Shown here: piece after piece, positions 208 to 3,200 of the stretch
Position numbering within the stretch: position 1 is the first letter of the stretch
How the letters are laid out: the number at the start of each line of letters is the position of its first letter
DNA from: Bacteroidales bacterium
GTDB lineage: Bacteria > Bacteroidota > Bacteroidia > Bacteroidales > Tenuifilaceae
Length of the DNA stretch: 45,539 bases
Direction: 5' to 3'
Assembly (NCBI GenBank): GCA_028680705.1
Contig: JAQUJY010000013.1
Span: forward strand, 1-45,539
The notes under the pieces: model-generated
What the model was told of the DNA's origin: nothing
Databases searched by the model: none
Seen by the model: only the letters and a program-made list of their open reading frames with translations
Translations under genes and position numbers: made by a program

Positions 208-3200
208 ATGGAAACACAAAAACTAAATACTACACAGGGTAACGCTATACCGAGGGGTAATGCGCTAACCCAGCAATTAGCTCGACTACTTACTGGTCGC
301 TCAATCTTTCTTTCTTTCTTTCTTTCTTTCTTTCTTATAATCCTTAGCCTCCCCACCCTGGCGCAGATCCTCTGGGAGGAGGATGCGCATCCCTACACCG
401 ATACCATCTCCAGAACGGGTGTTTACTCCTACTTTGGCGGGCCCCACACGCCCCGGGGCGACCTGAAGGTACTGGTGCTAACCATTGGGTTTGATATTGA
501 CACTCTAGTTTTCCCAGGAAGTTCTCAAATATGGCCTGTACATTCTGATGATGAGATGCAAGATTTTCAGGGTTTCCCTCAAGATTTTGATGAGGTGTAC
601 TACTCCAGCCCCGATATGTTCTCGCCCACGGCCAGCGACCTGAGCGTATCCAACTTCTACTACCAGCAGTCGCGCACGGTAGATGGTGAGCCGTTTAAGG
701 TTACCTACGAGTTCTTTCCACATCGCATTAATGTTCCCATACTCCCCAGCGATAAAAATGATTTTTACTTCAACAAGTTAACTAACCGGGCCTACGATAC
801 CATTCAGACTCTCTTTGCCGATACCACTTGGTACGAGTACTTTGCCCAGTTCGACCAGCGCACCAACTCGAACTTCCAGTTCGATAACTCGGTGAATCCT
901 TCGCCCGATGGCAATATTGATTACCTGCTAATCCTGTTCCGCTTTAGCTCACCACCCAGTAGTATTGCTGCACTAAAATGGATGGATAATTTTAGTCACA
1001 ATGCTTGGGCGGGGGTAACAAACAGAACAATATCTTTTACTAATGGGAACACAATAACCTTTAATAAGGGGTTTACGGTACAAACGGGGATCATGGATAA
1101 AACAACTTATCGTTCCCTGTTTATACACGAGGATGGTCACACCTTTTACAAGGGGCCACATGTGTTTGGAGCAAATGGTGTTGTAGGAAACTACTTTTAT
1201 ACCGGCAATGGTTGGGGTGGTGTTGCTGCGCAACCTCGAATTTACTACTCGTACAACGCATGGGACAGGTGGTGGCTAAAATGGATTGATATTAAGCACG
1301 ATCTAAGCGGGCCAGAGCATAATGGCGACTACTGGCTCAAGGACTTTATCACCACCGGCGATGCCATGCGCCTTAAGCTACCCTTTCCCGATGGGCACGA
1401 TGGACAGTACGTTTGGCTCGAGAACCGAACAGGGCACACTCCATTTGATGAACGTCTTGGCAGGCAAAAGGATGGAGCCGGAAACCCCATACCCCCAGCA
1501 TCAAAAGGGGTTGTGGGTTTTGTTGAGGCAATATCTGATAACCATTCCAATGTTTCATCTATTCTATGGGGAAAACCTAATACTTTAAGAGTTATTAATC
1601 CGAATGGAAATTTCGATTATTCCTGGACATCATATAGAGACGGTGCTGCCGCACCAGAGTGGTTTGGAAACAGGATTTATAATTATTCAACAGAGCAAGA
1701 AAATCCCTTTGGAGTGCATAATTCGCTAATGGCATTAAGAGATGACTTCTGGGGTGACGATGTGATTAACTATAGCATAAACGGAAACTCACAACCTAGA
1801 GATAAAAGGGAGCAATACTCTGTAATTGAGTCAGATGGTGAAATAATATGGGGGCCAATAGGTTACGACCTAGCATTTGCTCCGGGATCCAAGTTTTCAA
1901 TCTGTACTAATCCAGGGTTAATTGCACAGCAAAAGTATAATGGGGCTGATACGAAATTAGACCCCATATACCTTCACGGGTTATCCTTCGAAGTGTTACA
2001 GTACGTGGGTAGCGGTGTAAACCGCAAGGCACAGATAAGGGTAAAATATGATGATTATGAGATTGATCGAAATGTGAGGTGGACTGGCGAGATTATACTC
2101 CCAGCTGATGTGCCCTTAGCGCTTAAGGAGGGCAAGATTATTACGCTTGATAAGAGCGGAACGCCCAACAGGCATACGCTCACCGCTGCGGGCGATTTTA
2201 TAAACCCAACTACCCTTACCCTGGAGCCAAGCTCTACATTCGCGCTTAGGGCATCAAGCAGAATGATTTTGAAAAATGGAAGTGCTCTTACCTTGGAATC
2301 AGGCAGTAAGCTGAAGGTATCGGAGAGCGCAAAGCTGATAGTTAAAGCTGGCTCCAGTTTAATACTAGATGATTGTTCTGAGATAGAGGTATTACCGGAA
2401 GGGGAAATTATTGTTGAGGAGGGTGCAACCCTCAAGATCTCCCCCAACGCCATCCTCAATGTACACAACGGGCAGGCAGCCTTTAGCATTCATCCAAATG
2501 CTGTAATCCCCACAGGTTTTGTCCATCCCAACAATGTGGTGCCACCAACCTACCAGATTGCCTCCGGAACGCATGTGTGGGAAAATGCTGCCTATAGAAT
2601 GTATCGCAATTTGGTTGTTGAAACAGGGGCCAAGCTAACGCTACTTAATCCCTCCCTCTCCTTTTCTCCAGACAAGGGCGTGCGAGTGGGCGTTGGTGCT
2701 GAGCTAAATATTGAAGGAGGAGCGCTGCTCCCCAGAACTGACTGTAATTGTAAAGGTGAATGGATAGGTATTTCGGTACAGGGCAACCCATCTGAGCAGG
2801 GTAAGCTAATTTTGAATGGTACCGTTGTAGAAAAGGCTAAAATCGGGGTTGAGGCTATGGGTGAATGTATTATAGACGTGAACGGCGCAACCTTTTCGAA
2901 CAACAGAGTGGGCATCTCATTCAGGGCGTTGCCAACAGGCTATAGCCTGTTGCAGGTGGCTGGCTCCACCTTTACCTTTGAGGATCACGGGACATATCCA
3001 CAAAAGATTACCCCCATTTTTATTGACCTTAGGGAAGTGCCCTGGTTGAGTATATCAGGGAATACCTTCCATAATCTTACCCCTTTTAGCTCGCCTATTC
3101 CCTCTGCAGGGTATGGGATACGTGCATTGGATACGGATCTGTTCTTAATGGGCGATGCCAATACGTTCATAGGTCTATTCACCGGCATTGAGGCCAGTGC

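Follow-up and report, generated by a model that had tools for sequence, protein, structure and literature searches.

The analysed window is a complete contig of 45,539 bases (G000:C38) from a Bacteroidales genome of 3.09 Mb in 162 contigs, which we take to be metagenome-assembled. It contains an open reading frame of 1664 codons that, read from its annotated ATG, encodes a predicted secreted protein and carries eight perfect copies of the tetranucleotide TCTT in its 5' coding region (Table 1). As the earlier note had stated, the units are in frame and begin at codon 33; TRF (8.0 copies, 100% matches) and the translation of the reading frame agree on this. The tract translates as FLSFFLSFFL, within IFLSFFLSFFLIILSLPTLA, after which the predicted mature protein would begin with Q. 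This stretch, called by reading of the sequence without a dedicated predictor, is plausibly an ordinary signal-peptide core followed by a cleavage site, placed according to the -3,-1 rule. The claim that the signal peptide takes its hydrophobic core from the tract was thus borne out.

Table 1. Features of the repeat-bearing gene and its 5' neighbour (positions in the window)
Feature	Position	Strand	Basis
3' end of preceding gene, T9SS-type tail, 13 nt upstream of the protease-like ORF	3..194	+	reading frame
1664-aa predicted secreted protein: signal peptide, HExxH (M6-like) region, long repetitive C-terminal part, T9SS type A sorting domain; start ATG at 208	208..5202	+	
Predicted signal peptide, likely cut after TLA (residue 52)	208..363	+	sequence; -3,-1 rule
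Putative (TCTT)8 slippage tract, codes for signal-peptide hydrophobic core	305..336	+	TRF, frame table n = 5 to 13, shuffles
TAA ending the OFF frame at n mod 3 = 1 (e.g. 7 or 10 units)	338..340	+	same in 3/3 orthologs
TAG ending the OFF frame at n mod 3 = 0 (e.g. 6 or 9 units)	345..347	+	same in 3/3 orthologs
HEDGH motif (HExxH), residues 307-311	1126..1140	+	
T9SS C-terminal sorting domain (PF18962, TIGR04183)	4981..5181	+	

The TCTT repeat far exceeds the length expected by chance. The tract did not arise in any of 100 dinucleotide-shuffled versions of the window, and under a first-order Markov model only about 3e-9 perfect period-4 tracts of at least 32 nt would be expected per 3.09-Mb genome. 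A pattern search of the entire source genome returned it as the sole run of at least five TCTT units. No other tetranucleotide with even four copies was found in samples of 244 kb from this genome and of 372 kb from a relative (G004, see below).

A protein search covering 99 genomes returned two orthologs with the tract, one in Bacteroidales bacterium UBA5349 (G004, DHQB01000023.1; same genus, 78% protein identity) and one in Bacteroidetes bacterium ADurb.Bin008 (G009, MWFE01000035.1; another genus of the family, 57% identity). Both carry (TCTT)10 at the position matching the tract of the source genome (G000). Rather than eight units everywhere, or changes by three only, which the earlier note had named as the outcome opposed to switching, ten and ten were found, a difference of two units that puts the gene out of frame. 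Unit number thus differs among relatives, out-of-frame alleles of an otherwise intact gene included, as in a contingency locus. Across the family, runs of at least five TCTT units occur in three of 27 genomes, in this gene only and always at one place (8, 10 and 10 units). Runs of at least seven units were present in 11 of the 393 genomes of the order Bacteroidales; of those outside the protease-like gene, none lies in a signal peptide and most are intergenic. The exact flank pattern gave no match in viral contigs. The tract is known from these three orthologs only, each represented by one assembly per species, and two further members of the genus (G001 and G002) have a homologous gene without it; homologs that lack the tract have ordinary signal peptides.

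At its C terminus, the protein matches Por_Secre_tail (PF18962; E 2.7e-7, 31.2 bits, curated cut-off 27) and TIGR04183 (E 4.8e-7, 29.7 bits, curated cut-off 23), both above the curated cut-off. With a Sec signal peptide and a C-terminal sorting domain, it is predicted to be a type A cargo of the T9SS, in line with the first reading of this DNA. The accompanying claim of a metalloprotease stands in part. The HEDGH motif is present in all three orthologs, HExxH is kept in six of seven aligned homologs (it is absent from L023), and distant relatives from other families match the M6 model TIGR03296, with E values from 7e-10 to 2e-3 and at most 39 bits against a cut-off of 110.8. The window protein shares the HExxH motif with the M6 domain but gives no match to the model itself, and its HExxH region had no match in Pfam, NCBIfam or PDB. 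Searching PDB sequences with the protein or with a seven-sequence profile returned nothing useful, and the AlphaFold2 model built on a three-sequence alignment was unusable (pLDDT 32). Judging by the homology of its relatives, the protein is probably M6-like and a protease. The homologs in G001 (L009/L037, G001:C45) and G002 (L038/L039) have the same C-terminal half, about 90% identical, while an N-terminal part of the C25 (gingipain-like) peptidase type (Pfam C25, E 2.6e-45 for G001) replaces the HExxH part and follows an ordinary signal peptide without the TCTT tract. By comparison of the sequences, these genes and that of the window read as the outcome of domain swapping on a common T9SS chassis.

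The gene that precedes the protease-like ORF has a T9SS-type tail as well, and its 507-aa homolog in UBA5349 stops 12 nt before the start of the protease-like gene. Given these gaps of 12-13 nt, the two genes are probably co-transcribed. Farther along, the window is collinear at 6.9-22.3 kb with a segment of the UBA5349 genome (G004:C13, ~55.8-71.2 kb), but the protease-like gene lies there at 95 kb, which suggests that it has moved relative to its neighbours.

To define the reading-frame rule, the 5' end of each of the three orthologs was rebuilt with n = 5 to 13 units, and every upstream ATG, GTG and TTG was translated. Of these starts, the annotated ATG alone reaches the tract in each species, and in each of them full-length translation requires n mod 3 = 2 (5, 8 or 11 units). 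In the assembled consensus, the gene of the source genome (8 units) is therefore ON, and those of UBA5349 and ADurb.Bin008 (10 units each) are OFF. The OFF products comprise 41-50 residues and end in ...LSFL or ...LSYNP, both OFF frames terminating at most four codons past the tract at a TAA and a TAG that are identical in all three orthologs. Separately from the rebuilding, tblastn revealed a frame change and a TAA at the tract position in UBA5349. No ATG, GTG or TTG rescues the OFF frames in any of the three orthologs. Two further statements of the earlier note concerned start codons and proved correct: the out-of-frame ATG at 260-262 is followed by CGC TAA and stops at once, and no in-frame ATG past the repeat would keep the signal peptide, as in the source genome in-frame starts resume only 47 codons past the tract, with a GTG that lies beyond the signal peptide.

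We then examined if the OFF genes bear signs of constraint. Past the tract, each ortholog remains open, with neither stop nor frameshift, for about 1,620-1,640 codons, the OFF alleles for 1,632 and 1,642 codons. The dN/dS ratio was 0.27 between the source genome and UBA5349, and 0.17 and 0.14 for the pairs of ADurb.Bin008 with the source genome and with UBA5349 (the latter pair both OFF), these two values resting on near-saturated dS. On these ratios (0.14-0.27), the OFF genes are under purifying selection. A neutrally evolving branch of 0.24 substitutions per site should introduce about 42 nonsense changes into each gene; none was seen. Synonymous sites between ADurb.Bin008 and the other two are saturated (pS ~0.7), yet the tract is still uninterrupted. 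The first ten codons past the tract, which hold both OFF-frame stops, had a pS of 0.12 between the source genome and ADurb.Bin008, within the lowest 0.6% of 10-codon windows; low synonymous change just past the tract was also observed between UBA5349 and ADurb.Bin008, although it was weaker (lowest 2.4%), and it was unremarkable between the source genome and UBA5349. Genes that are OFF in the sampled genomes and yet have stayed intact over long times carry the signature of a reversible switch, unlike that of a dead gene.

Taken together, it is likely, with a probability of roughly 0.86, that the (TCTT)n tract is a slippage contingency locus which sets a T9SS cargo ON or OFF. The two 10-unit OFF alleles and the intact, constrained downstream frame support what the earlier note had proposed, namely that a protease-like gene is turned on and off by slippage. 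When DNA polymerase slips in the tract, n would rise or fall by at least one unit. The start codon would be joined to the remainder of the gene at n mod 3 = 2 only, any other n leaving the short peptide described above, and the switch would act in translation, allowing production and export of a cargo of 1.6 kilo-residues either in full or not at all. Steps of three units would leave the gene ON and lengthen or shorten the signal-peptide core by four residues. If the transcript is shared with the upstream gene, slippage would mainly affect the second protein. We infer that slippage takes place within single populations of living cells, at some rate and to some benefit, and that the product is probably an active enzyme. 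Tracts of 8-10 tetranucleotide units are short in comparison with the best-studied tracts of Haemophilus, so switching may be slow.

Other explanations were weighed against this switch. Both OFF alleles might be assembly errors in unit number, or recent dead alleles of genes being lost, without any reversible switch. We regard this as unlikely: although all three sequences are MAG consensus and the present comparison does not prove a return to ON, the same ten units appear in two independent public assemblies from different genera, a tract of 40 nt is shorter than a typical short read, no further frameshift or stop has accumulated in either OFF allele, and the tract itself has been preserved despite synonymous saturation. 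It is quite improbable that the repeat merely tunes signal-peptide length, three-unit steps of four core residues acting on export efficiency, with no switching at all. The difference seen is two units, which breaks the frame, and the 10-unit alleles would be left unexplained, even if the cores at n = 5, 8 and 11 (10, 14 and 18 residues) are indeed all hydrophobic; tuning can nevertheless coexist with switching. The same facts bear on the earlier suggestion that three-unit changes alter core length only, which is right as to the cores and leaves the observed difference out of account. Still less credible is translation of the OFF alleles by ribosomal frameshifting in the tract, from a non-standard start or through coupling to the upstream gene. 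The protease frame of ADurb.Bin008 stays open some way 5' of the tract and the upstream gene ends close to the start, but there is no ATG, GTG or TTG in the protease frame before the tract, the first one after it is the GTG mentioned above, and the longest homopolymer in the tract is three T, which also makes transcript slippage unlikely. Finally, the idea that the tract arose as a neutral accident of low complexity, in a signal peptide with no need beyond F, L and S (residues which do fit such a core), can be practically dismissed, as the codons of the tract have a probability of about 1e-5 given its amino acids (codon usage of the window), the tract is unique in the genome and sits at the same place in three species, and the homologs without it make do with ordinary signal peptides. 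On the grounds given here, we rejected a neutral low-complexity origin, an error of assembly and a rescue from alternative starts.

Comparison with known systems places the tract among familiar kinds of switches. In the lic, hgp and mod genes of Haemophilus influenzae, a tetranucleotide unit likewise stands in the 5' coding part and a change by one unit shifts the frame; these loci usually contain more units, and their repeats are not known to make up the core of a signal peptide. The parallel to tetranucleotide switches of Haemophilus and Neisseria drawn in the earlier note holds as to kind, but a closer one is found in the opa genes of Neisseria, where the stretch coding for the leader peptide contains CTCTT repeats that set the frame and slipped-strand mispairing turns expression ON and OFF, with a measured rate of ~1e-3 per cell per generation (PMC3960869). 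In both cases, a short pyrimidine-rich repeat lies in the 5' region coding for the leader or signal peptide of a surface-located protein, and its unit number determines the frame. Unlike in opa, the unit has four bases instead of five, the product is a T9SS cargo instead of an outer-membrane barrel, and Neisseria has several opa copies; the likeness is one of anatomy, and no sequence homology is claimed. Frame switching driven by CT repeats is also described for outer-membrane protein genes of the hop family of Helicobacter pylori (hopZ, oipA/hopH), and a signal-sequence change has been reported for five hop orthologs (PMC11124246). There, the unit is a dinucleotide, and the phylum and protein family are different. 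Within the same phylum, Bacteroides shows phase variation of surface functions, and the Bacteroides passages that we cite from a 2025 review of phase variation concern DNA inversion (PMC11868660). Such inversion is site-specific, whereas in the present gene the variable element is a repeat within the coding sequence, which shifts the reading frame.

In the literature searched, outside of which most subscription journals lie, we found neither a case of repeat-driven phase variation in Bacteroidota nor one that affects a T9SS cargo. Within this literature, the switch is very probably of a known kind and new as to its host group and its T9SS cargo. Phase variation in Bacteroidota has been described mainly as DNA inversion, whereas the gene analysed here would add an Opa-like, in-frame repeat switch acting on a T9SS cargo in uncultured Bacteroidales. 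A broader proposal is that an Opa-like frame switch arose independently in the Bacteroidota, placed in a T9SS cargo's signal peptide and acting on a secreted protease, that steps of three units also tune its export, and that the bacteria may live outside animal hosts; we consider the chances of this proposal evenly balanced. One of the three bears the name ADurb, which is used in MAG sets of anaerobic digesters. The locus points to random ON/OFF control of a costly secreted product, probably a protease and a public good, outside host-pathogen settings as well.

Several other repeats were noted in the window and in the compared genomes. The window contains an intergenic array of a 17-nt unit (TAAATCGCGTATCCACC, 3.9 copies, 36532-36598) and a perfect duplication of 18 nt (35673-35709). 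In UBA5349, heptanucleotide and hexanucleotide arrays are present, namely (TTCTACA)7 at L100:5906-5954, (TTTTAGT)5 at L111:1106-1140 and (AACCTC)6 at L111:6506-6541. A long (GAAA)n tract with an assembly gap lies inside an FkbM-methyltransferase-like frame in another genome (G292:C119, ~9475-9642, minus strand), which makes this gene a further candidate for slippage switching. In yet another one (G401:C165, ~653-708), (TCTT)14, that is (GAAA)14 on the other strand, is located just upstream of a lipoprotein-like ORF and might possibly act as a promoter-length switch.
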